Positions 10,057 to 26,929 of a DNA stretch of 38,145 bases are shown here, piece after piece. The notes beneath the pieces are model-generated. The model was not told the DNA's origin, ran no database searches, and saw nothing but the letters and a program-made list of their open reading frames with translations. Origin of the DNA: a virus. Every line of letters starts with the position of its first letter. Within the stretch, counting starts at the first letter, position 1. The DNA lies in IMG/VR virus record IMGVR_UViG_3300034013_000367, positions 1 through 38,145 of that record. One strand, 5' to 3'. The position numbers were made by a program, and so were the translations under genes.

Positions 10057-11267
10057 TGGCAACTTCCCTTATCCCGTTTGACGAATGGGTCGCTGGCACC
10101 CTGCAGAACAGCGTGCCGGCAAACGCAAACGCGCTTCGATCCGAGGCACTGGTGGCCAACGTCATCAGCGATAGCGTCACGGCGCAGCCTTCCGATTCCA
10201 GCTCGACGGACGGTGATTGCTACATCATCCCGGCTGCAGCGACCGGTGCGCAGTGGTCGACGTTCGCGGAAGGATCGCTGGCCTACTATCGCGGCGGCAC
10301 GTGGTACGAATTCACCGCCTATGAGGGCTTGCTCAAGGTCGTGGCCGGTGAGATCAAGATCTTTAACGGCTCCGCGTGGGAAGTCTACGGCGGGGGCGGC
10401 CCGGGCGGTAGCTCTTCCATCACCGTGCAGGAAGGCGGCGTCGACGTCGCGCTCGACGTTACCACGGTGAACTTCACCGGCTCTGGCGTGGACGTCACCG
10501 AGACGTCACCGGGCGTCGTTGAGGTGAATGTCAGCGGCGGCGGCGGGGGCGGTGGGGCCACGGACAACGACTGGCTAGAGTCCATTCAGGAGATGCGAGC
10601 TTTTCACAACACCTCGTCGTGGAACGTGTTCGGCCAGCAAACGCCGACCGTAACTGGCGCGGCCCGAGCGCAGGCAATCGACGCAACGAACGCGGCCACT
10701 GGCCTCCCTCGCGTCGGCGCGGACGTCACCGTCGCGTCGACAACCGCAGTCGCAGGCTGGCGCGTCGGCGCTCGCCAGTGCTACGTGGGAAGCAGCGCTA
10801 ACGGCGGCTTTGTGTTCTCTGGCGGCTTCGTTATCTATGATGGTGCCGCGAATTCCAGCCATCGCGCATTTGTGGGGCTGTATGCGGCTGGAACTGCGCC
10901 AACCGACGTTGACCCATCGACAATCACCAGTATGGTCGGAATGGGTTACGACGCAGCCGACACGAACGTCCAGTTCTTCCATAACGACGCATCGGGCACG
11001 GCGACAAAGATTGACACCGGCATTGCCAAGCCGACGACGAACAACTCGCGCGGCTACTTGGTGAAGATCGAGTGTCCTCCGGGTGGGCCTGCAACGTTCA
11101 CGCTTAAGGAGGTCGTCGCGGGTTCAACGTTCACTGCCGTTGCTTCGACCAACCTGCCCACCGCAACAACTTTCTTGGGTGGCCTTGGCTACGCCGGCGT
11201 CGGTGGCGTTAGCGGGACCATCGGAATCGCCCTTTATCGACAGACGGTTAAGACTCCGGCACTCTGA
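10056..11267 (+). CDS. Tail fibre / receptor-binding protein, DUF2793-like
   Basis: A 403-residue protein overlapping the hub stop (TGATG). Residues 1 to about 125 resemble DUF2793-type modules: A-L-R-S-E-A-L-V-A-N, D-G-D-C-Y-I-I-P-A-A-A-T-G-A-Q-W and A-Y-Y-R-G-G-T-W-Y-E-F. Two glycine hinges (about residues 110-120 and 155-163) surround a short beta module. The last 220 residues are beta-rich with many Gly, Ala and Thr, fitting a trimeric receptor-binding head. Its place as the last tail gene before lysis genes supports host recognition. No chaperone gene follows. Confidence 0.72.
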   Translation: MATSLIPFDEWVAGTLQNSVPANANALRSEALVANVISDSVTAQPSDSSSTDGDCYIIPAAATGAQWSTFAEGSLAYYRGGTWYEFTAYEGLLKVVAGEIKIFNGSAWEVYGGGGPGGSSSITVQEGGVDVALDVTTVNFTGSGVDVTETSPGVVEVNVSGGGGGGGATDNDWLESIQEMRAFHNTSSWNVFGQQTPTVTGAARAQAIDATNAATGLPRVGADVTVASTTAVAGWRVGARQCYVGSSANGGFVFSGGFVIYDGAANSSHRAFVGLYAAGTAPTDVDPSTITSMVGMGYDAADTNVQFFHNDASGTATKIDTGIAKPTTNNSRGYLVKIECPPGGPATFTLKEVVAGSTFTAVASTNLPTATTFLGGLGYAGVGGVSGTIGIALYRQTVKTPAL

Positions 11268-11269
11268 CA

Positions 11270-12001
11270 ATGGCCACGATCAATAGTAAGGGCCTCGCCC
11301 TCATCCGCGACTTCGAAGGGTTCAGCGCCGTCGCCTACCTGTGCCCGGCCGGTGTCTGGACCATCGGTTACGGCTTCACGCAAGGCGTCAAGGAAGGCGA
11401 CACGATCACGCGCGAGGCGGCGGATGCGCGGCTGGCCTACGAGGTCGGCGCGTTCGCCACTGGCGTGGCCAACCTGATCACCCGGCCGGCCAATGAAAAC
11501 GAGCTGGCCGCCATGACCTCGCTGGCCTTTAACATCGGTCTTGCAGCCTTCGGTCGGTCGACCGTGCTGCGCGCGCACAACCGAGGCGACACGGACGCGG
11601 CGGCCCGCGCCTTCGGCCTGTGGAACAAGGCGGGCGGAAAGGTTCTGCGCGGCCTCACCCGTCGACGCTCGGCGGAAGCGGCCCTGTACCTTGAGCCGGT
11701 GCGTGTGAAGATCGACATCCCGGCGCAACCCCTGGAGCGCATGCGGATCGACCCGGAAGACGCGATGCCGCAGAAGATCGACCCGGAGCGCTCTCTCGGG
11801 CGCTCGGAGATCGTGCGTGGTGGTGGAGTGGCTGGCGGCGTGGCAGGGCTTACGCTGGCCGCCGAGGGGGCACGCGCGGTGGGCGATATCAAGTACAGCC
11901 TCGGCGATTGGCTTCCGTATATCGCCCTTGGTATAATCGTGGTTGCAGCCGGCTACGTGATCTACGAACGCGTCCAACAAAGGCGCGGTGGCTGGGCATG
12001 A
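11270..12001 (+). CDS. Endolysin, T4/P22-type lysozyme with C-terminal membrane segment
   Basis: A 243-residue muramidase of the GH24 family. The catalytic triad pattern E-8-[D/C]-5-T is present as Glu16, Cys25 and Thr31 (C-P-A-G-V-W-T-I-G-Y-G). The lysozyme domain ends near residue 145. A linker of about 65 residues follows, then a hydrophobic segment at about 214-233 (Y-I-A-L-G-I-I-V-V-A-A-G-Y-V-I-Y) and a basic tail. GH24 phage lysozymes normally end after the catalytic domain, so this one may be tethered to the inner membrane by its C-terminus. Its stop overlaps the next ATG (ATGA). Confidence 0.88.
   Translation: MATINSKGLALIRDFEGFSAVAYLCPAGVWTIGYGFTQGVKEGDTITREAADARLAYEVGAFATGVANLITRPANENELAAMTSLAFNIGLAAFGRSTVLRAHNRGDTDAAARAFGLWNKAGGKVLRGLTRRRSAEAALYLEPVRVKIDIPAQPLERMRIDPEDAMPQKIDPERSLGRSEIVRGGGVAGGVAGLTLAAEGARAVGDIKYSLGDWLPYIALGIIVVAAGYVIYERVQQRRGGWA
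11908..11937 (+). promoter_or_regulatory. Candidate internal sigma-70 promoter before holin/spanin genes
   Basis: TTGGCT at 11908-11913, an 18-bp spacer, and TATAAT at 11932-11937 preceded by TGG (an extended -10). Transcription would begin near 11944, upstream of the holin candidate at 11998. It lies inside the codons for the lysozyme membrane segment, so the AT-rich match could be partly a product of hydrophobic codons. Confidence 0.4.
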
Positions 12002-14284: not shown

Positions 14285-15859
14285 ATGAGCGAGCTAGCAC
14301 TACGGCGATTCATGGCCCTGTTCCGGGGCAACGGGCGGTCAGTCGGCAGGTGGCACCCTGACCGGCCGAAGGACAAGCAGAGTGTGACCGACCAGCGGGA
14401 GCCGACTCCGCAGGACTTTGATGACCACCTGCTTGGCAAGGTCGGCGTGGGTGTGGTACCCATTCGCGATGACGGTACGTGCTTTTGGGGCGCTATCGAC
14501 ATCGACAACCACGGGCAGACCGAGGACATCGACATCGTCGAGGTCGAGCGGCGGGTCCTCGAGCAATCGCTCCCCCTCGTGCCGGTGCGTTCCAAGTCGG
14601 GTGGCGTCCACCTTTACATGTTCGCGTCGGAGCCGGTCAAGGCTGAACACGTGCGCGAGCTGCTCAAGCGGTGGGCCAAAGGTCTGAAAGTCGAAGGCGT
14701 CGACTGCATTTACCCGAAGCAGTCACGCTTGGCGCTCGACAGTGACGGAAAGCGCGCGTTCGGCAACTGGATCAACCTCCCGTATTACGACGCCGACGAC
14801 ACGGTGCGCTACGCCGTGTCTAACGGCAAGCCGCTTAACCTCGACGGCTTCCTCGACACCGCCGAGGGGCGCGCGGTCACGGCTCAGGAGGTGCAGCGCC
14901 TGTTCGGCGAGGATCTCTCGCAGATGCCCCCGTGCCTCCAGGCCCGGCTCCGGGATGGCGGCTTCATCGAAGGCGAGCGCAACGACGGCGTGTATCAGGT
15001 GGCCGTGTTCTGCCGCAAGCGTGACCCGGACAACGCGCGCGAAGCTTCGCATGACCTCAGCGTACGCTTCATGCCGAATGCGCCGCTCAGCTTCAAGGAG
15101 CGCGACAAGACCATCCGCTCGGCGATGGGCCGCACGTACAACTACAAATGCTCGTCGTTCAAGGACGTCTGCGACCGGGAAGCGTGCCGCAAGCTCAAGT
15201 TCGGGATCAGTGAGGCCGAATACGAAGCGATGGCCTCGCGCGCCACGATGCCGACGTTTACCGGGCTTACCAAGTACCACAACACTGAGCCCGTGCGCTT
15301 CGACATCGAACTCATGCAGGGCGAGGTGAACCGCAAGATCGAGGGCCTGCAGATCGAGCAGCTCAGCAACATCAACGAGTTTCGCAAAGTCGTGATGGAA
15401 AAGACCCACGTGGTGCTGCCGCGGCTCAAGGCCAGCGAGTGGGACGCGATTCTCACCGATCTGTTCGCCAACGTCAAAATTGACGAGATCCCGGAAGACG
15501 CCACGCCCGAGGGCCTGACCAAGATGCGCCTCCACGAGTTTTGCCGCAAGGCCGACCTCAGCTCCCCGGGTGACGACCACAAGGACCGCGAGGTTTTGCA
15601 GCGTGGCCTGCCCGTCGTACAGCTGCACGAGGAGCGGCGCGTTGTGATGTTCCGCCACGCCGACTTTGTGGCGCATCTGCAGCGCTCAAAGACTGACGCG
15701 ATCAAGAATAAGGACTTGTGGTTCAAGGCTAGCCGCTACATGCGCGTCGACAACACCCGGATTCGCGTCGGCAAACAGACCATTTCGGTATGGTACCTGC
15801 CCGTGGACGAGCTCCAGGAAGAGAGCAACCAGCCGCGCGACTTCACCCCGGAGTATTGA
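14285..15859 (+). CDS. AEP-superfamily primase / primase-polymerase
   Basis: A 524-residue protein whose N-terminal half resembles archaeo-eukaryotic primases of the TOTE-like branch. The metal-binding D-x-D is Asp72/Asp74 in W-G-A-I-D-I-D-N, followed by S-K-S-G-G-V-H-L-Y with His109, and G-V-D-C-I-Y-P-K-Q near 138-146. Residues 150-300 include several Cys (C-S-S-F-K-D-V-C-D-R-E-A-C) that could bind zinc. It would prime replication for the family-A polymerase encoded downstream. Phages with 2-aminoadenine DNA such as S-2L also encode AEP primase-polymerases, which fits this genome. An ATAGAG motif and GAGG precede the ATG. Confidence 0.8.
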   Translation: MSELALRRFMALFRGNGRSVGRWHPDRPKDKQSVTDQREPTPQDFDDHLLGKVGVGVVPIRDDGTCFWGAIDIDNHGQTEDIDIVEVERRVLEQSLPLVPVRSKSGGVHLYMFASEPVKAEHVRELLKRWAKGLKVEGVDCIYPKQSRLALDSDGKRAFGNWINLPYYDADDTVRYAVSNGKPLNLDGFLDTAEGRAVTAQEVQRLFGEDLSQMPPCLQARLRDGGFIEGERNDGVYQVAVFCRKRDPDNAREASHDLSVRFMPNAPLSFKERDKTIRSAMGRTYNYKCSSFKDVCDREACRKLKFGISEAEYEAMASRATMPTFTGLTKYHNTEPVRFDIELMQGEVNRKIEGLQIEQLSNINEFRKVVMEKTHVVLPRLKASEWDAILTDLFANVKIDEIPEDATPEGLTKMRLHEFCRKADLSSPGDDHKDREVLQRGLPVVQLHEERRVVMFRHADFVAHLQRSKTDAIKNKDLWFKASRYMRVDNTRIRVGKQTISVWYLPVDELQEESNQPRDFTPEY

Positions 15860-15860
15860 C

Positions 15861-17612
15861 ATGGCCAAAGTCGACTACAACCCCAAGAACGGCCGTTTCG
15901 TCATTTTCTGCCCGCCCTTTGAGAACGGCGCATTCCGGACTCTGCCCTCGCGCAGGTGGGACGCGCGCCAGAAAGCATGGACGGCGCCCGCGATCCGCGT
16001 GAACGTGGATTGGCTCGAGCAGCACGGCTACAAACACGTTTGGACTCTCGAGGCCATCGCGGCCCTGAGGCAGGCTCGCGATGCGCTCGAGAACAAAACC
16101 ACGCGTCACAACTGCCGCCCGTTCCCGAGCTGGTACCGGTTCAAGCGTGAGCCCCGGCTCGCTCAGCGGCGCGCGTTTGAGAGCGTGTACGGCTTGCCGT
16201 CGGCGGCCCTCTTCATGGACATGCGCACCGGTAAAACCAAAGCGGTCATCGACATGGCGTGCGCCATGCGCATGGAGGACCTCACTCGCGGCATGCTGCT
16301 TGTGTGCCCGATCAACTGCCGCCGAAACTGGCTGTCCGAGTTCCAGGAGGACGGCACGATTCCGTATGACGCCCACCTGTTGCGTGCGGACGACAAGGGA
16401 AAGAGCTTCGAGCGGTGGCTCACGACCCCACATGATTTCAAGGTGTTGCTCGTCGGATTCGAGTCGCTCTCGGCCGGGTCGGCGTTTGACTACTGCAAGC
16501 GCTTTCTCACCGCGACCGCTTCCCCGTTGGTCGTGCTGGACGAGTCGCAGAACATCAAGACTCACAACGCGATTCGAACCAAGAAGTGCTGGGACCTCGG
16601 CCGCATGGCCGCGTACCGCATCGCGATGACGGGCACGCCCCAGGCCAAAAACCCGATGGACCTATACGCACAGTACGAGTTCCTCGACCCGGACATCATC
16701 GGGTGCGGTGACTTTTACGCGTTCCGCAACCGCTATGCCGTGATGGGCGGATACGAGGGCAAGGAGATCATCGGCTACGACAATCTCGACGAGCTGTTCG
16801 ACCTAGTCGCTCCGTTCACTTACCAAGTGCGGCAGGCAGACGCCATTGACGTTCCGGAGAAGACGCGCGAGATTCGCGCGGTACCGATGGGCACCGAGCA
16901 GGCCCGAGTGTACAAGCAGTTGGTCAAGGAGCAGTTCACGCAGACCGAGGACGGCGTGCTCGTACTGGATACGGTGCTCGCGCGCATGCAGCGCCTCCAC
17001 CAAGTCGCTGGTGGCCATCTGGCCGTGATGCGTCCTGCCGAGGAGATCGAGCAGCTGCTAGCGTCCGGTATTCGCAACCCGGAGCGCTTCATCACAAAGC
17101 CCATCGACGACGCCACCGCGAAGGTCGCCGAGCTGCTCAAGATCGCAGATGAGCGCCCGGGGTCCATGCTGGTCTGGTGTGCTTACAAGCCCGAGATCCG
17201 GCGCGTTGTGGCCGCACTCCGCGAGAAATACGGCGAAGACCAAGTGGTCGAGGTGCACGGCGACATCGACGAAAAGCAGCGGCACGAAAACGTTCGGGTC
17301 AAGTTCCAGGGCGGCCACGCGCGCTTCCTCGTAGGTAACGCCCAGACCGGTGGCGTCGGGCTCACGATGAGCCGCGCGCAGACTATCGTTTATTACTCGT
17401 CGACCTTCGCGCTACTGGATCGTCTGCAGAGCGAGGAACGCGGAACGGGTGGCGATAAGACCGAGGGCGTGCACATCATCGACCTGCTCACCGAGGGCAC
17501 CGTCGACTTCCACGTGTACAAGGCCGGGCAGGATAAGCGCGATTTCGCCGAGTGGGTGCGCGAGCGTATCGCGGAGCGCGTGCCGTTCGAGCGTCTCGCG
17601 GTGGTTGACTGA
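15861..17612 (+). CDS. SNF2/DEAD-like superfamily 2 helicase
   Basis: A 583-residue protein starting at the ATG at 15861, one base after the primase stop. Motif I is M-D-M-R-T-G-K-T-K (about 119-127), motif II D-E-S-Q (227-230), motif III M-T-G-T-P (256-260), and the C-terminal RecA-like lobe has Q-T-G-G-V-G-L-T-M-S-R-A near 490-502 and R-L-Q-S-E-E-R-G-T-G as motif VI. The order is that of SNF2-type phage helicases. It probably acts with the primase during replication, as translocase or unwinding helicase. No nuclease domain is visible. Confidence 0.87.
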   Translation: MAKVDYNPKNGRFVIFCPPFENGAFRTLPSRRWDARQKAWTAPAIRVNVDWLEQHGYKHVWTLEAIAALRQARDALENKTTRHNCRPFPSWYRFKREPRLAQRRAFESVYGLPSAALFMDMRTGKTKAVIDMACAMRMEDLTRGMLLVCPINCRRNWLSEFQEDGTIPYDAHLLRADDKGKSFERWLTTPHDFKVLLVGFESLSAGSAFDYCKRFLTATASPLVVLDESQNIKTHNAIRTKKCWDLGRMAAYRIAMTGTPQAKNPMDLYAQYEFLDPDIIGCGDFYAFRNRYAVMGGYEGKEIIGYDNLDELFDLVAPFTYQVRQADAIDVPEKTREIRAVPMGTEQARVYKQLVKEQFTQTEDGVLVLDTVLARMQRLHQVAGGHLAVMRPAEEIEQLLASGIRNPERFITKPIDDATAKVAELLKIADERPGSMLVWCAYKPEIRRVVAALREKYGEDQVVEVHGDIDEKQRHENVRVKFQGGHARFLVGNAQTGGVGLTMSRAQTIVYYSSTFALLDRLQSEERGTGGDKTEGVHIIDLLTEGTVDFHVYKAGQDKRDFAEWVRERIAERVPFERLAVVD

Positions 17613-18903: not shown

Positions 18904-19641
18904 ATGAGCAAGAAAGAAAACGCTCTCGTTAAGAACGAGAATCTTCCGACCTTCCTGCAGGGCAACGGCGGCCAGCGACGCGGTACCGAGGACGTCGGAG
19001 CCGACGACATCGTCATCCCGCGCCTCGAGCTGGTCCAGGCCCTGAGCCCGTGCCGCAAGAAGAACGACCCGGCGTACATCGACGGCGCCGAGGAAGGGCT
19101 GCTGTTCAACAGCTTGACGCGCGAGCTGTACGGCTCGGCCGTCGAGGTCATCCCGGTGAAGTTCCGCAAGGAGTACCTCATCTGGAAGGACCGCAAGAAG
19201 GGCGGCGGCTTCCGTGGCTCGTTCCCCACCGAGCTGGAAGCTGAGCAGGCGCGGCGCCAGCTCGAGGATGGCGAGGACTGCGAGGTCCTCGACACTGGTG
19301 TCATGTTCTGTCTCCGCGTCGACGGCGGCCGTCTCGAGGAAATCGTCGTTTCGATGGCGAAGTCCCGCATGAAGACCGCGCGCAAGTGGAATAGCCTGAT
19401 CCGCCTGACGCAGCACGACAGCTTCGCCAAGCGCTACGAGATCTCCGCGGTCCAGGAGAAGAACAGCAACGGCGACGACTACTGGAACATCGCCGTCAAG
19501 CCGCTCGGCTTCGTGGACGAGAACCAGTACAAGAGCGCCGAGGAGCTGTACCGCGTGATCGAGAGCGGCGGCGTGGTGGCTGACCGCTCGCAGGCTGACG
19601 AGCCCGCTTCCGGTGGCCGTGGAGGCGTGCCGGAGTTCTGA
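18904..19641 (+). CDS. Candidate ssDNA-binding protein
   Basis: A 245-residue protein, mostly beta and hydrophilic, preceded by a purine-rich leader. Recognisable blocks are D-I-V-I-P-R-L-E-L-V-Q-A-L-S-P, G-L-L-F-N-S-L-T-R-E-L-Y, V-I-P-V-K-F-R-K-E-Y-L-I-W and a tail of low complexity ending G-G-V-P-E-F, loosely like the P-F ends of SSB proteins. Such proteins often sit beside phage helicase and polymerase genes and are annotated as putative ssDNA-binding. There is no decisive OB-fold motif by eye, so the function is tentative. Confidence 0.55.
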   Translation: MSKKENALVKNENLPTFLQGNGGQRRGTEDVGADDIVIPRLELVQALSPCRKKNDPAYIDGAEEGLLFNSLTRELYGSAVEVIPVKFRKEYLIWKDRKKGGGFRGSFPTELEAEQARRQLEDGEDCEVLDTGVMFCLRVDGGRLEEIVVSMAKSRMKTARKWNSLIRLTQHDSFAKRYEISAVQEKNSNGDDYWNIAVKPLGFVDENQYKSAEELYRVIESGGVVADRSQADEPASGGRGGVPEF

Positions 19642-19705: not shown

Positions 19706-21157
19706 ATGACACTCAAAGCTTACGCCATCTTCGGGCCTCCGGGCACCGGCAAGACCACCGAGACGATCAAGCGCATGGGTCAACTGCGCGACGTCACGAA
19801 GATCGACCCGAACAAGATCGGGTTCTTTTCGTTCACGCGAGCCGCAGCCGGAGAGGCGCTCAAGCGCTTGGGCCTGACGCGCTCCGACAAGATTTCAACG
19901 CTACACGCGCTCATGTTCCGCCGCTTCGAGGTGTCGACGGTGGCCGTGGTGGATGCGTGGAAGCTCCGCAAGTTCGGCGACCAGATCGGCATGCCGTTTG
20001 CCGGCGTCAGCAATGACCAGTTCGAGCAGATGGAGATCGGCGACCAGTTCAACGCTCTGTGGTCGCTGGCCCGCGCGCGCATGCGCAGCTTGAAGGAGGA
20101 GTATGACGCCAGCTCCAGGCCCGGCACGCTGTCGCAGTTCGAATTCTTCGTCGATTCGTACGAGTCGTGGAAAAAGGCGCTCGGGCTGGTCGACTACACT
20201 GACATGCTGCAGATGTACCTCGAGCGGCCGTTCAACCACGGCGCCGAGGCGCTGTTCATTGACGAGGCGCAGGATCTCAGCCCGCTCCAGTGGGCGATCA
20301 TCGACCGCATGGCCGACCCTTCCGTGAATCCGCAGCTGCGGCTGCTCACGATTGCGGGTGACGACGATCAGGCCATCTTTGAATGGGCCGGCGCGGACCC
20401 GGGTGGCATGGCGCGTTTCTGCGAGCGCTACAATGCGAAGATCACGATTCTCGGCCAGTCCTACCGAGTGCCGCAGAAGCCGCACGAGCTGGCAAACAGG
20501 ATCATCCGCACAGTTGGTGCTCGAGTTGAGAAAGAGTACAAGCCGCGCGACGACCGGGGGCGTGTGGACTATCACCCGAGCTTCGAAGTCGGCCTGATTC
20601 GCGCTGGCGTGCCAACCATGATTCTGGCTCGCTCGTTCGTGGCTCGGAAGGAGATCGAAGACGAGCTGGTCGCGCGCTGCGTGGCCTACCGGACCGAGGG
20701 CGGCCGGCCGGGTCTGTACCACACCAAGTGGGCCGAAGCGATCCGCGCGTACGAAACGCTGGTCGCGGGCGGTGAGATCGGGCAAGTGGAAGCCCGCGCC
20801 ATGTCCGCTGTCGCGTCTCCAGGAGCGGCGGCTTTCATCAACAATCGCGATTTCGGCGGGCTGGTGGCCATGTGCCGTGGTGATCGGACGCGCGCGTTCA
20901 AGATTCCGCCTGCGTTCATCGACTTTTACCGCAGCGCCGACCTGTTCGCGCAGGCCCACGTTACGCTGTCCACGATCCACGCGGCAAAGGGTCGCGAGGC
21001 GGACGACGTTATCCTACACACGGGCGTCACCGCGCGCACCCTCGCCGACATGGAGCACAACCCCGACGCCGAGGCCCGCGTCTGGTACGTGGCCGTGACC
21101 CGCACGCGCGAGCGGCTCGTGCTCATCGACAGCGACTCCAGGTGCCCGCTGCTATGA
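19706..21157 (+). CDS. UvrD/Rep-like superfamily 1 DNA helicase
   Basis: A 483-residue protein with a full set of SF1A motifs: Walker A G-P-P-G-T-G-K-T (residues 10-17), motif Ia F-S-F-T-R-A-A-A, Walker B F-I-D-E-A-Q-D (184-190), motif III G-D-D-D-Q-A-I-F-E-W-A-G-A (218-230), motif IV Q-S-Y-R-V-P, motif V S-T-I-H-A-A-K-G-R-E-A-D and motif VI Y-V-A-V-T-R-T-R-E-R-L. It is compact compared with UvrD (about 720 residues), so the accessory subdomains are reduced. It likely unwinds DNA ahead of or behind the polymerase, whose ATG overlaps its stop. Confidence 0.92.
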   Translation: MTLKAYAIFGPPGTGKTTETIKRMGQLRDVTKIDPNKIGFFSFTRAAAGEALKRLGLTRSDKISTLHALMFRRFEVSTVAVVDAWKLRKFGDQIGMPFAGVSNDQFEQMEIGDQFNALWSLARARMRSLKEEYDASSRPGTLSQFEFFVDSYESWKKALGLVDYTDMLQMYLERPFNHGAEALFIDEAQDLSPLQWAIIDRMADPSVNPQLRLLTIAGDDDQAIFEWAGADPGGMARFCERYNAKITILGQSYRVPQKPHELANRIIRTVGARVEKEYKPRDDRGRVDYHPSFEVGLIRAGVPTMILARSFVARKEIEDELVARCVAYRTEGGRPGLYHTKWAEAIRAYETLVAGGEIGQVEARAMSAVASPGAAAFINNRDFGGLVAMCRGDRTRAFKIPPAFIDFYRSADLFAQAHVTLSTIHAAKGREADDVILHTGVTARTLADMEHNPDAEARVWYVAVTRTRERLVLIDSDSRCPLL

Positions 21158-22992
21158 TCGACTTGACGCGTTACGACACCATCGCGCTGGACTTGGAAAC
21201 GACCGGCCTCAAGTTCTGGTCGGACAAGATTTTCGGCGCGGCGATCTCCACGGCCGACGGTGATCACTACTTCGACATCCGCAAGCGGCCCGAGGTCATG
21301 GGCTGGCTGCGCGACCAGCTACCACGCGTGCGCACGGTCGCGTTCCATAACGCCAAGTTCGATCTCCACTTCCTCGCGAATCACAACATCGGGCTGCGTT
21401 GGGATCAGGTCGTGTGTACGATGGTGCGCGCGGCTCTGATCGACGAGCACCTGCCCGACTACGGCCTCGACTTTGTGGCGAAAAAGTTCGTTGGCATCGG
21501 CAAGGATGGCGACATCTGGCAGGAGCTGGCCGACATGTTCGGCGGCAAGGCCACAAAGAACGCGCAGATTGAGAACCTGCCACGTGCCCCGGAGGCGCTG
21601 GCCGGCCGCTATGCCAAGGCCGACACGCGCGCCACCTTGAAGCTGCATCACTACCTCGAGCAGCAGATCGCGGCCCAGGATCTTGGGCGCGTGGACACGG
21701 TCGAGAGGCGTCTCCTCGCCGCTCTCGTACGCATGGAGCGCGGGGGCGTGCGGGTGGACGTCGACGGTGCCCGTCGCGCTCAGAAGGACGTCGACGCGCT
21801 CGCGAAGCGGCTACAGAAGGAGCTTAACGACATCGCGGGCTTCGAGGTGAATCCGAATCCGTCGCGCTCCATCCACACACTGTTCAAGCCGCAGGAGAAA
21901 GATGCGCCGGACGGCAGCGGTACGTATTGGGAGCTGGTCGACGGCACCATCGCCGATAAGACCGAGGCCGGGGGCCCGTCGATCGACGCCGACTGCCTGC
22001 GCCGCATGAAGCACCCGGCAGCCGCGCGCATCCTCGAGCTGCGGAAGTCGATCAAGGTGCGCGACGTCTTCCTCGCGAACCACATCCTTGGGCACCACGA
22101 CAACGGCGTTGTACACGCCAACTTCAACCAGACCAAGAGCGACAACGGAGCAGGCACCGGAACAGGTCGCCTCTCGTGCAACGCGCCGGCCCTGCAGCAG
22201 ATCCCGGCGCGCGACAAGCAGATCGCAAAGATTGTGCGCTCGCTGTTCCTGCCCGACCACGGACACGAGTGGGTCGCGAACGATTGGGCCCAAATGGACT
22301 TCCGCGTGTTCGCTCACTACGTGAAAGACCCCGAGATTCTCGCAGCGTACGCGGCCGATCCGAACACGGATTTCCATTCATCGACGGCGCAAATGACTGG
22401 GCTTCCGCGCTCGCCTCGCTTCGCCGGTGATCCGAACGCGAAGCAGATCAACCTCGGGCTCGTGTTCGGCATGGGCAAAGGCAAGCTCGCGCAGGAAATG
22501 GGCCTCCCGTACACGCTCGAGGCCGGCAGCGACGGTCGCGTGTGGGCGCGACCCGGCCCGGAAGCTGAGGCCGTTTTTGCCAAGTACCACGCCGCGATTC
22601 CCGGGGTCCAGGACCTTTTGCGCACGGCGTCCAGCGTAGCTAAGGCGCGCGGCTTTGTGATGACCGCTCTAGGCCGCCGCATTCGCTTTCCGCGCGGCCA
22701 GTTCACACACAAAGCGGGCGGGCTCATCTTCCAGGGCACGGCGGCCGATGCGCTCAAGGTCAAGATCTGCGAGCTGGACGACTATTTCGAGTCGATCAAG
22801 GGCAGCGGCGCGCGGCTCGTGCTCAACGTGCACGACGAGTTCGACACCAGCGTCCCTCCCGGACGTGCCGACATCCGCGAGGAAGTCAACCGTATCGTGA
22901 CCGGCTTTGGCCCGGGTGACGCTGTGCACCTGCGCGTTCCGGTGGTGACGGACCAAGGCCGGGGCCCGAATTGGTACGTTGCTTCCGCCTAA
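21154..22992 (+). CDS. Family-A DNA polymerase with 3'-5' exonuclease (DpoZ-like)
   Basis: A 612-residue replicative polymerase. The 3'-5' exonuclease has D13-L-E-T-T-G, H-N-A-K-F-D (65-70) and Y-A-K-A-D157. The polymerase has motif A (D377-W-A-Q-M-D-F-R), the O-helix K430-Q-I-N-L-G-L-V-F and motif C V-H560-D-E. There is no 5' nuclease domain. Aligning the O-helix with E. coli Pol I puts Leu434 at the Phe762 position and Phe438 at Tyr766. In phages with a PurZ pathway, exo-plus family-A polymerases lacking the 5' nuclease (DpoZ) copy 2-aminoadenine; context suggests the same here. It starts at the ATG overlapping the helicase stop. Confidence 0.9.
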   Translation: MIDLTRYDTIALDLETTGLKFWSDKIFGAAISTADGDHYFDIRKRPEVMGWLRDQLPRVRTVAFHNAKFDLHFLANHNIGLRWDQVVCTMVRAALIDEHLPDYGLDFVAKKFVGIGKDGDIWQELADMFGGKATKNAQIENLPRAPEALAGRYAKADTRATLKLHHYLEQQIAAQDLGRVDTVERRLLAALVRMERGGVRVDVDGARRAQKDVDALAKRLQKELNDIAGFEVNPNPSRSIHTLFKPQEKDAPDGSGTYWELVDGTIADKTEAGGPSIDADCLRRMKHPAAARILELRKSIKVRDVFLANHILGHHDNGVVHANFNQTKSDNGAGTGTGRLSCNAPALQQIPARDKQIAKIVRSLFLPDHGHEWVANDWAQMDFRVFAHYVKDPEILAAYAADPNTDFHSSTAQMTGLPRSPRFAGDPNAKQINLGLVFGMGKGKLAQEMGLPYTLEAGSDGRVWARPGPEAEAVFAKYHAAIPGVQDLLRTASSVAKARGFVMTALGRRIRFPRGQFTHKAGGLIFQGTAADALKVKICELDDYFESIKGSGARLVLNVHDEFDTSVPPGRADIREEVNRIVTGFGPGDAVHLRVPVVTDQGRGPNWYVASA

Positions 22993-23896: not shown

Positions 23897-24105
23897 ATCG
23901 CGACGATTGGGCCGCCGAGCTGTGGGTCGTCACGCGCTGGCTGTTCATCGCCGCGCTAGTCGTCTTCGCAATCGGAACGATTGGCCGCCTCGACTTCGAG
24001 GATGCCAAGTTGATGGAGCGCCGCTATTGTGACGGCGTCGAACAGGGCCTGTGGCCTGACTACAATGACAACTACGAAGAGGTGTGCCATGCTCAAGAAC
24101 ATTGA
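23893..24105 (+). CDS. Small single-pass membrane protein
   Basis: A 70-residue protein starting at the GTG at 23893. It has a membrane segment at about residues 16-33 (W-L-F-I-A-A-L-V-V-F-A-I-G-T-I) and an acidic C-terminal tail with two Cys (R-R-Y-C-D-G-V-E and V-C-H-A-Q). Its 3' end overlaps the PurZ-like gene by 17 bases, so the two are likely translated in a coupled way. Function unknown. Confidence 0.65.
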   Translation: MNRDDWAAELWVVTRWLFIAALVVFAIGTIGRLDFEDAKLMERRYCDGVEQGLWPDYNDNYEEVCHAQEH

Positions 24106-25222
24106 CCTCGTGATCGATTGCCAGTTCGGATCTACCGGTAAGGGGCTGCTCGCTGGCTTCCTCGCCGAGACGCGGGCCTACGACACCATCATCACCGCGT
24201 GGGCCCCGAACGCTGGGCACACCTACATCGACCGCGACGGCACGAAGTGGGTCAACATCGCCACCCCGAACGGCTTGGTCAGCCCGAACATCGAGCGCGT
24301 GCTCCTCGGCCCCGGCTCGATCATCGACCCCGTCCTCCTCGAGTCCGAGTGGCGCCGCTACCTCGACTTCGCGAACGCCGCGGGCTTCGCCCAGACTGCG
24401 CGCCTCGTCATCCACCCGAACGCGGCCGTCGTGTTCCAGGACCATCGCGACCTCGAAGCGGGCCCGATGACCAAGATCGGTAGCACCAAAAAGGGCGTCG
24501 GCGAAGCGGCCATCCAGCGCATCCGCCGCGACCCCGACAACCTGAACACGGCCGGCGTGGCTCTCGAGGGTTCGTGGCTCGCTCAGTTCGTCGTGACCCG
24601 TGACCAGTACGACGTCGAGCTTTACAAGGCCCGCGAGGTGCTGATCGAAGGCGCACAGGGCGCCAGTCTGTCGATGTACCACGGTTTCTACCCGTACACG
24701 ACGAGCCGCGACGTTTCGACCCTGCAGATCCTCGCCGACTGCGGCGTACCTGCGAGCTGGGCTCCCAGGACCACGGTCTATGGCACGCTCCGCACGTTCC
24801 CCATCCGCGTGGCGAACCGCTACAACGAGGCCGGCGAGCAGGTCGGCTTCTCGGGCCCGCACTACGCGGACCAAGTCGAGATCAAGTGGAGCGACATCGG
24901 CCGCAGCCCGGAACTCACCACGGTCACGAAGCTGCCGCGCCGGCTGTTCTCGTTCAGCGAGTCGCAGGTGCTCGAGGCGATCCGTCGCAATAACGTACGC
25001 CACCTGTTCGTGAATTTCGCCAACTACCTGCCGAGCGCCGAGTCGGCCGCGCGGTTCGTCTCCAGGCTCGACGAGCTGGCCGCGCCGTACCTGTGCGGCG
25101 TGACCCACGTGGGCTTTGGCCCGACCCACCACGACGTTCTTGAATACGACATGGTCACGACCAACGAGCGCAGCGCAACCATCGACGCGTGGTGGCTCGA
25201 CTCCAAGCTCAAGGGGCTGTGA
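24089..25222 (+). CDS. purZ: PurZ-like (2-aminoadenylosuccinate) synthetase
   Basis: A 377-residue member of the adenylosuccinate synthetase fold, starting at the ATG at 24089 (ribosome site GAGGTG). PurZ joins dGMP and aspartate to make the precursor of 2-aminoadenine deoxynucleotide. In cellular PurA the P-loop reads W-G-D-E-G-K-G-K with catalytic Asp13; here it is F-G-S15-T-G-K-G-L, the Asp-to-Ser change reported for phage PurZ. The His of N-A-G-H44-T is kept. The T-K-L-D guanine-reading motif of PurA appears as N-F-A-N, losing the Asp, which fits use of ATP or dATP instead of GTP. The next genes encode MazZ- and DatZ-like enzymes. Alternative: an ordinary PurA, unlikely with these changes. 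Confidence 0.88.
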   Translation: MLKNIDLVIDCQFGSTGKGLLAGFLAETRAYDTIITAWAPNAGHTYIDRDGTKWVNIATPNGLVSPNIERVLLGPGSIIDPVLLESEWRRYLDFANAAGFAQTARLVIHPNAAVVFQDHRDLEAGPMTKIGSTKKGVGEAAIQRIRRDPDNLNTAGVALEGSWLAQFVVTRDQYDVELYKAREVLIEGAQGASLSMYHGFYPYTTSRDVSTLQILADCGVPASWAPRTTVYGTLRTFPIRVANRYNEAGEQVGFSGPHYADQVEIKWSDIGRSPELTTVTKLPRRLFSFSESQVLEAIRRNNVRHLFVNFANYLPSAESAARFVSRLDELAAPYLCGVTHVGFGPTHHDVLEYDMVTTNERSATIDAWWLDSKLKGL

Positions 25223-25506
25223 TGGACGTTGCCAAGCTGCAGGGGCACGTCGTCCTCTGGGCCAATTCGGCCTTCCCAAACCGCACTCCCTCGAGCGCTT
25301 TTATGAAGCTCTTCGGAGAGCTGGGCGAGGTGATCCGCGACCCAGAGGACCCGGGCGAGTGGGCCGATCTTCTGATCTTGATACTCGACCTCATGGCCAT
25401 GCACGGCCACTGGGACCCGGCCCAAGCTGTGCTCGACAAGCTCGAGATCAACCGCCGCCGCACGTGGGCCGTGAACGCCCTCGGCGTCATGCAGCATAAG
25501 GAATAG
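25222..25506 (+). CDS. mazZ: MazG-like nucleotide pyrophosphohydrolase (MazZ candidate)
   Basis: A 94-residue all-alpha protein of the MazG-like class. Metal ligands are Glu33 and Glu36 in G-E-L-G-E and Glu46/Asp49 in G-E-W-A-D, the ExxE...ExxD arrangement. In Z-genome phages MazZ hydrolyses dGTP to dGMP, feeding PurZ. The ATG overlaps the PurZ stop (TGATG), so the two enzymes are coupled. It is a minimal single-domain form. Substrate cannot be fixed from sequence; removal of host dNTPs in general is the alternative. Confidence 0.8.
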   Translation: MDVAKLQGHVVLWANSAFPNRTPSSAFMKLFGELGEVIRDPEDPGEWADLLILILDLMAMHGHWDPAQAVLDKLEINRRRTWAVNALGVMQHKE

Positions 25507-25510
25507 AGCC

Positions 25511-25705
25511 ATGAACTACGAACGCAAGCGTTACCTCACCGACAAACTGGCCGACTTGCTTTTCAGCCGGCAGGAGCAGCTCAAGCGCCACCCGGTGCCG
25601 GGTGACTTCCACGGGCACCGGCTCCGCGAGGAGATCGAAGCCCTGCAGTGGGCGCTCACCCTCGCCCGCGAAAACCAGACCGCGACGGATGTGAAATATG
25701 GCTAA
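25511..25705 (+). CDS. Small helical protein of unknown function
   Basis: A 64-residue, highly charged helical protein (L-T-D-K-L-A-D-L-L-F-S-R-Q-E-Q-L-K-R and E-E-I-E-A-L-Q-W-A-L-T-L-A). ATAGAG at 25503-25508 sits directly before the ATG. It lies between the MazZ- and DatZ-like genes and overlaps the latter by eight bases, so it may assist one of them, though no partner is shown by the sequence. I do not recognise a family. Confidence 0.65.
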   Translation: MNYERKRYLTDKLADLLFSRQEQLKRHPVPGDFHGHRLREEIEALQWALTLARENQTATDVKYG

Positions 25706-26288
25706 CGCCCTCACCCTCGAAGAGAAGCTCCGCACGGGTGCCGTTCGCCGCTGGCACATCGTCCCGATGGCGCGCGAGCAGAGCATCGCCGAGCACATGT
25801 ACCGGGTGACGGTCATTGCTGAGGAGATCCTGCGCGTGCTGGGTCGCTTCGACTGGAACAGCAACCACACGCTCAACGTGATGCGGTTGGCCTTCATTCA
25901 CGACCAGCACGAAGTGAAAACGGGCGACATCCCGAGCCCGGCCAAGTATAAGCTCCAGGGCGTCGCGGGCTTTGACGTCGTCGCAGCGGTCGAGCGCAAC
26001 ATCGACAGCGAGTACGCCGAGCTGGCCGCGCTTCCCGGGTGCGTGGAAATCGTCACGCTGGCCGACACACTCGAGGCCATGGACCACCTCGCGCTCTACG
26101 GCGTGGGGCCGCGTGCCCGCGAAGTCTGGGACACGATGCACGACACCATCGCGAGCAAGGTCGAGAAGATCGTCACACGCGCCAGCCTCCAGCCCTCGCA
26201 AGCGCTGGCCCTGCTCAAAATCTGTGAAACCTGCTGCCTGTCCGCTGTTGAGCGCGGCTGGGCCCAAATCGAGGACGCAAGCGAATGA
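25698..26288 (+). CDS. datZ: HD phosphohydrolase, DatZ/YfbR-like
   Basis: A 196-residue HD-domain enzyme resembling YfbR 5'-nucleotidases. Visible residues are R18-W19, His33 in A-E-H-M, His68-Asp69 in F-I-H-D-Q-H-E-V, the T-G-D-I-P-S-P-A-K-Y loop and Asp123 in L-A-D-T-L-E-A. Phage DatZ of this family removes dATP so that only the Z nucleotide is available to the polymerase. Linkage to PurZ- and MazZ-like genes strongly suggests that role. An ordinary dNMP phosphatase role cannot be excluded. The stop overlaps the next ATG. Confidence 0.83.
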   Translation: MANALTLEEKLRTGAVRRWHIVPMAREQSIAEHMYRVTVIAEEILRVLGRFDWNSNHTLNVMRLAFIHDQHEVKTGDIPSPAKYKLQGVAGFDVVAAVERNIDSEYAELAALPGCVEIVTLADTLEAMDHLALYGVGPRAREVWDTMHDTIASKVEKIVTRASLQPSQALALLKICETCCLSAVERGWAQIEDASE

Positions 26289-26929
26289 ACAAGAACGCTT
26301 TCCTGAACCTGTTGAACGACGGCCACGCCAAGATGGTGGCCCTGACCAAGAGCAAGGGCGAGGAATACAGCTCGAGCGACGACCAGCTCGGCAACTTCCG
26401 CCGACTGGCCGAGCAGACCGGGCTCACCATGCCGCAGATCTGGCTGGTGCTCTTCACGAAGCACATCGACGCGATCCGCACGTTCATCAAAGACGAGGCC
26501 GCGGGCGTGCAGCGCGAGCGCTCGGAGCCTATCGAAGGGCGCATCGATGACGCCATCCTGTACCTGTACCTCCTGCGCGGGATCGTGGGTGAGGAGAAGC
26601 AGGCCCAACGTGATGAGTTCCGCCATGCCGTCGCGGTGCTGAAAAACATCGAGAACCCGCCCCCACTGACGGCGTATTTCAGCTCGGCCGCCACCGTAAC
26701 GCTCGGGGTCCAGGCTCCGCACCGGGCACGTGCTGTCGTTCCGAACGCCGCGCACTACCAGCGCATCGACCACCCGGACGCGCTCCATGGCGTACCGCAC
26801 GGGTCGGCGTTCGTGTGGGTGGGTGCGGCCGATTCCCGGTGCGAAGAGTACCGCGCCAAATGCCTGCGGCTCGGCGTGCGCTTTTTCATGGCCACGGCTG
26901 AGTACGCCGACGACAAGTTCGGGGGCTGA
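26285..26929 (+). CDS. Nmad1/DUF1599-like protein with extra C-terminal domain
   Basis: A 214-residue protein. Residues 1 to about 105 resemble the nucleotide-modification-associated Nmad1 (DUF1599) family: K-G-E-E-Y-S-S-S-D-D-Q-L-G-N-F-R-R-L, then T-K-H-I-D-A-I and E-G-R-I-D-D-A-I-L-Y-L. This all-alpha domain is related in style to nucleotide pyrophosphatases. The remaining 100 residues are a separate beta/alpha region (S-S-A-A-T-V-T-L, S-A-F-V-W-V-G-A-A-D, R-F-F-M-A-T) I do not recognise. ATGA overlap with the DatZ-like gene places it in the Z pathway, perhaps acting on another nucleotide. Confidence 0.7.
   Translation: MNKNAFLNLLNDGHAKMVALTKSKGEEYSSSDDQLGNFRRLAEQTGLTMPQIWLVLFTKHIDAIRTFIKDEAAGVQRERSEPIEGRIDDAILYLYLLRGIVGEEKQAQRDEFRHAVAVLKNIENPPPLTAYFSSAATVTLGVQAPHRARAVVPNAAHYQRIDHPDALHGVPHGSAFVWVGAADSRCEEYRAKCLRLGVRFFMATAEYADDKFGG

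Follow-up and report, generated by a model that had tools for sequence, protein, structure and literature searches.

We found that an uncultured phage, known from a record of 38,145 bases in IMG/VR (virus record IMGVR_UViG_3300034013_000367), very probably encodes the known pathway for genomes in which 2-aminoadenine (Z) replaces adenine, together with a DNA polymerase (DpoZ) of the phiVC8/SH-Ab type. Judging from its genes, we give this reading a probability of roughly 0.92. It is well supported because residues, gene order, conservation and the placement of PurZ in a tree all agree. The Z system itself is already established (PMC8342488, PMC8065100, PMC8599892, PMC12884076). The whole record was analysed, and we refer to it as the window.

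Layout of the genes

A complete set of Z genes had been proposed by an earlier sequence-only reading, and indeed the published purZ, mazZ and datZ genes are all present, plus dpoZ. That reading placed the first three in one operon. PurZ, MazZ and DatZ are real ORFs, tightly packed on the plus strand at positions 24089-26288 (Table 1), and their matches to family models and PDB structures are far beyond chance. The purZ stop and the mazZ ATG overlap in the sequence TGATG, and AAGGGG lies just upstream of the mazZ ATG. An alternative mazZ start, a GTG at position 25189, was judged less likely than the ATG at 25222. MazZ is given a length of 94-105 amino acids. Downstream, datZ overlaps a 64-codon ORF (orf64), and the end of datZ is in turn overlapped (ATGA) by an ORF encoding 214 amino acids. 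These overlaps and the tight spacing fit the layout of a putative translationally coupled operon.

Profile searches gave no convincing family for orf64 or for the ORFs in the DpoZ-PurZ interval, and a search for orf64 homologues in Z loci was empty. After the 214-aa ORF come small regulators and an HNH nuclease, then a packaging and head module. A scan of the window found neither an integrase nor a resolvase, and a search of 50,697 phage records found no relatives of the window at the nucleotide level.

Table 1. Positions of the main features in the 38,145-base window
Feature	Position	Strand	Evidence or remark
Primase and helicase	14285-17612	+	
Pam3 gp34-like protein	18904-19641	+	
UvrD/PcrA-like helicase	19706..21157	+	PF00580, E 2.5e-22; replication module common to Z phages
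DpoZ, predicted Z-selective family-A DNA polymerase, phiVC8-like clade	21142..22992	+	NF038380
PurZ, predicted dGMP:aspartate ligase (succino-2-amino-dAMP synthase)	24089..25222	+	NF038379
MazZ-1, predicted (d)GTP to (d)GMP diphosphohydrolase	25222..25506	+	PF04447, 7ody
64-aa ORF (orf64), mazZ-datZ interval	25511..25705	+	ATG 4 bases past mazZ; 8-base overlap with datZ
DatZ, predicted dATP triphosphohydrolase, HD family	25698..26288	+	phrog_7076, 6zpa
Nmad1/DUF1599-like protein, 214 aa, possible Z-operon accessory gene	26285..26929	+	phrog_6802, fold match
phrog_2165 protein, annotated "DNA helicase", 153 aa	28166-28627		
Terminase large subunit, phage D3-like	30093..31787	+	Identity to D3 group

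Families and residues of the four Z proteins

The synthetase is a member of the PurA superfamily by profile match, and the sequence-only reading had assigned it to the Z pathway as PurZ. This assignment holds. The protein scores about 312 bits (312.0-312.7, E 3.5e-93) with the PurZ model NF038379, although this is only 12 bits above the cut-off of 300, while the PurA models all score far below their own cut-offs. Its nearest solved structure is PurZ of cyanophage S-2L (7odx). In a tree, it groups with phage PurZ proteins on a branch with support 100/99, outside both PurA and the PurZ0 proteins of Wayne, Ghobes and PermaG, which form a separate group (99/99); long branches may affect the deep joins of this tree.

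Alignment with E. coli PurA bears out two substitutions that had been noticed before. The catalytic loop reads QFGSTGKGL in the window and QWGDEGKGK in E. coli, which places a Ser at the catalytic Asp, and the guanine-reading Asp of the E. coli TKLD motif aligns with the Asn of NFAN. The residues of the dGMP and ATP sites, whose roles were described for S-2L PurZ (PMC8342488), are as in S-2L, or as in phiVC8, which has Asn at S-2L position Q308. The window enzyme is therefore predicted, from these residues, to use dGMP, aspartate and ATP or dATP.

One could instead suppose that the window encodes a PurA-type enzyme for the supply of ordinary AMP, accompanied by house-cleaning nucleotidases, and that there is no link to Z. 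The superfamily membership would allow this, as would the wide occurrence of MazG and HD enzymes. However, we find it hardly credible in view of the Ser in the catalytic loop, the Asn in place of the guanine-reading Asp, the fact that the cut-offs of both NF038379 and NF038380 are exceeded, and the near-invariable co-occurrence of all four genes.

As the sequence-only reading had stated, a MazG-like enzyme and a YfbR/DatZ-like HD enzyme follow the synthetase. The first of these matches PF04447 (E 1.2e-8), and S-2L MazZ (7ody, E 4e-14) is its nearest solved structure. In the alignment, it retains E35, E38, E50, D53, I56, D60 and R83, and has a Gly at position E34. The metal ligands of MazZ are E35, E38, E50 and D53, I56 and D60 are tied to guanine specificity, and E34 is the sole variable ligand (PMC8342488). 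With these ligands and specificity residues kept and its gene in the order purZ, mazZ, datZ, the protein fits the MazZ-1 class.

A family-A polymerase had also been noted upstream. It is present, but this description understates it, since the protein is a DpoZ, scoring 774.9 bits with NF038380 against a cut-off of 500. The best PDB match is a phiVC8-like DpoZ (7pbk), and the protein retains L455, F459 and G548, which are markers of the phiVC8-like clade (PMC8599892).

DatZ matches the YfbR-like family PF12917 (E 1e-12) and phrog_7076, "dATP triphosphohydrolase" (E 6.4e-24), and S-2L DatZ (6zpa, E 2e-13) is its nearest solved structure. All metal ligands (H34, H66, D67, E70, D75 and D119) are retained, as are W20, I22 and P79 of the base and sugar pocket; the roles of these residues, including the exclusion of the 2-amino group by I22, come from work on S-2L DatZ (PMC8065100). 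The phosphate contacts R19 and K81 are also kept, while K116 is replaced by Thr. Apart from this position and the variable E34 of MazZ, published functional residues are retained in all four proteins.

In S-2L DatZ, K116 contacts the triphosphate, and close homologues are reported to conserve it strictly (PMC8065100). Thr at this position is the sole case among 73 aligned DatZ sequences, and it could make the activity of the window enzyme on dATP weaker or different. It is conceivable that dZTP is made, yet A is only partly substituted, with dATP being cleared poorly and dA still incorporated. We regard such partial substitution as rather improbable. The metal, pocket and remaining phosphate residues are all in place, and the DpoZ of the phiVC8-like clade also selects Z (PMC8599892). 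Moreover, Glu is found at position 116 in 10 other DatZ proteins from IMG/VR Z loci, and OxsA carries Glu at the equivalent position (PMC8065100). Given that Glu occurs in these ten phage proteins, K116 is variable within the DatZ family. The ten loci (L041-L045, L047, L051, L059, L066 and L068) are otherwise ordinary Z loci. An AlphaFold model of DatZ that was built without an alignment had a pLDDT of 47.5 and was discarded.

The preferred reading is thus the full Z pathway. MazZ would convert dGTP to dGMP, which PurZ would join to aspartate with ATP or dATP to form succino-2-amino-dAMP. The host PurB and kinases, whose steps are established knowledge of the Z pathway, would finish dZTP. DatZ would clear dATP and DpoZ would favour dZTP, such that Z would replace A in the phage DNA and pair with T through three hydrogen bonds. 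That the proteins act in this way, and that the virion contains Z, we infer from enzymes tested in other phages. Z-containing DNA blocks many restriction enzymes, and by analogy with the family the DNA of this phage would be expected to be resistant as well.

The cluster in other phages, and purZ-like genes in bacterial genomes

Conservation was assessed in 62 IMG/VR loci retrieved with the window PurZ. A MazZ-1 gene follows PurZ in 61 of the 62. DatZ was likewise found in 61; in the remaining locus, L016, the downstream sequence covered is no more than about 2.3 kb. DpoZ lies upstream of PurZ in 55 loci, and the remaining 7 start at most about 660 bases before PurZ. The order helicase, DpoZ, PurZ, MazZ, DatZ is found in nearly all 62 loci and in published Z phages (SH-Ab 15497, PMBT28, phiVC8, ZP6 and Ochrobactrum phage OH), with extra genes in places. 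Homologues of the UvrD-like helicase were found by tblastn in 52 of 79 PurZ-bearing loci. One Z locus (L054:7968-9331) has DpoZ, PurZ and DatZ, and mazZ was not found in its purZ-datZ interval; PF04447 had no match in the whole L054 record.

Among known systems, SH-Ab 15497 (Acinetobacter) and PMBT28 (Salmonella) share with the window the order helicase, DpoZ, small gene, PurZ, MazZ, DatZ, and their PurZ and DpoZ are 45% and 47-48% identical to those of the window. However, MazZ is longer in these two phages, at 385 and 290 aa, respectively. Cyanophage S-2L resembles the window in its PurZ (46.6% identity), free-standing MazZ-1 (41.5%) and DatZ (27.5%), and in the placement of mazZ between purZ and datZ. 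By contrast, it has a PrimPol and no DpoZ (PMC8599892). The phages phiVC8 (Vibrio) and ZP6 (Alteromonas) share DpoZ, PurZ and DatZ with the window, and have one gene in the DpoZ-PurZ interval. They differ in carrying MazZ-2, and their PurZ proteins group apart from that of the window in the tree. Their genomes are 39,422 and 38,080 bp, respectively, so the suggestion that the locus is a compact version on a 37-kb genome does not make it special; no end repeats were seen in the 38,145-base record. Like the window, Ochrobactrum phage OH has a small gene in the mazZ-datZ interval.

Two alphaproteobacterial MAGs were also observed to carry, in the interval from cmk to rpsA, a PurZ-like gene with a Ser in the catalytic loop and, adjoining it, a gene for a Ham1/RdgB-like pyrophosphatase (L160:7941-9645, in UBA6503 on a 994-kb contig, and L159:7971-9613, in OFTM141). 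The two PurZ-like proteins are 63% identical and score below the PurZ cut-off. In the tree, they nest within phage PurZ near that of Ochrobactrum phage OH. In each genome this is the only PF00709 gene found, and the purB match is weak. These genes are candidates for a cellular use of phage-derived purZ. Three further loci (L174, L175 and L176, from G111, G185 and G090) encode proteins of about 540 aa that combine a domain resembling, by eye, a P-loop nucleotide kinase with a PurA-like part containing GSEGKG (with the Ser). An ORF of 226-239 aa follows each fusion gene, and the genomes also hold a second, ordinary-looking PurA match.

The Nmad1-like gene and the D3-like background

The 214-aa protein whose gene overlaps datZ has an N-terminal helical domain; in the model of the protein, blocks within the first 110 residues have a pLDDT of about 62-91. 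The model resembles phage nucleotide modification associated domain (Nmad1)/DUF1599 proteins (Foldseek probability 1.00 and E 0.0085 for the best of the named matches), and unnamed viral proteins are stronger fold matches than the named ones. The ORF matches the phrog_6802 profile. A Pfam search did not recognise the protein, and a fold search of the PDB gave no significant match. Homologues occur 3′ of datZ in four other loci (L007, L013, L052 and L156). The protein does not look Z-specific, because similar proteins also occur in phages outside the listed PurZ records. In L012, the Nmad1-like domain also lies downstream of datZ, but there it forms part of a fusion protein (10545-11669) whose other part carries DPPY, a motif like that of adenine methylases; this is odd for a Z phage, where adenine should be absent. 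The phrog_2165 protein of the window recurs in six Z loci, of which four also carry the Nmad1-like gene.

The structural genes have a different affinity. The large terminase subunit is 70-71% identical to that of Pseudomonas phage D3 (70%) and its relatives, the portal and major capsid proteins are about 30% identical to those of D3, and connector genes reach 53% (L111). The best match to the head genes is a 7.3-kb IMG/VR contig (L076), with 75% identity in the major capsid protein. Unlike the window, the D3-like loci examined lack Z genes: none were found in the sequence covered by 80 D3-like IMG/VR loci from a terminase-based search, or in 10 whole D3-like records. Conversely, a search that had no positive control found no D3-like terminase in seven whole Z-locus records. 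The structural proteins of the window had zero matches in the 79 PurZ-bearing loci, within the limited flanks covered, and the primase, helicases, gp34 and DpoZ match many of these loci. Since it is the replication genes, and not the structural genes, that match Z loci, the stretch from the primase to datZ appears to form one module, to which a set of D3-like morphogenesis genes has been joined.

The Z cluster and a D3-like terminase are joined in no other record tested, which might suggest a chimeric contig, with the replication genes of a Z phage and D3-like structural genes brought together by misassembly. We consider this unlikely. The G+C content of 63% is even throughout the window (0.59-0.66 per kb), and the HNH, small terminase and large terminase genes run downstream of the replication genes in a single direction. 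Even if real, a chimera would leave the reading of the Z genes unchanged. One might further speculate that the module entered the D3-like lineage as a single cassette and that, in one sub-clade of Z phages, the Nmad1-like protein acts in Z metabolism as an extra enzyme or as a sensor, and may compensate for the change in DatZ. We regard this combined proposal as doubtful.

A divergent Z phage with D3-like structural genes would support the idea that the Z replication module moves among phage lineages. In addition, the DatZ variant and the overlapping Nmad1-like gene may offer a natural starting point for studying what the pathway requires.
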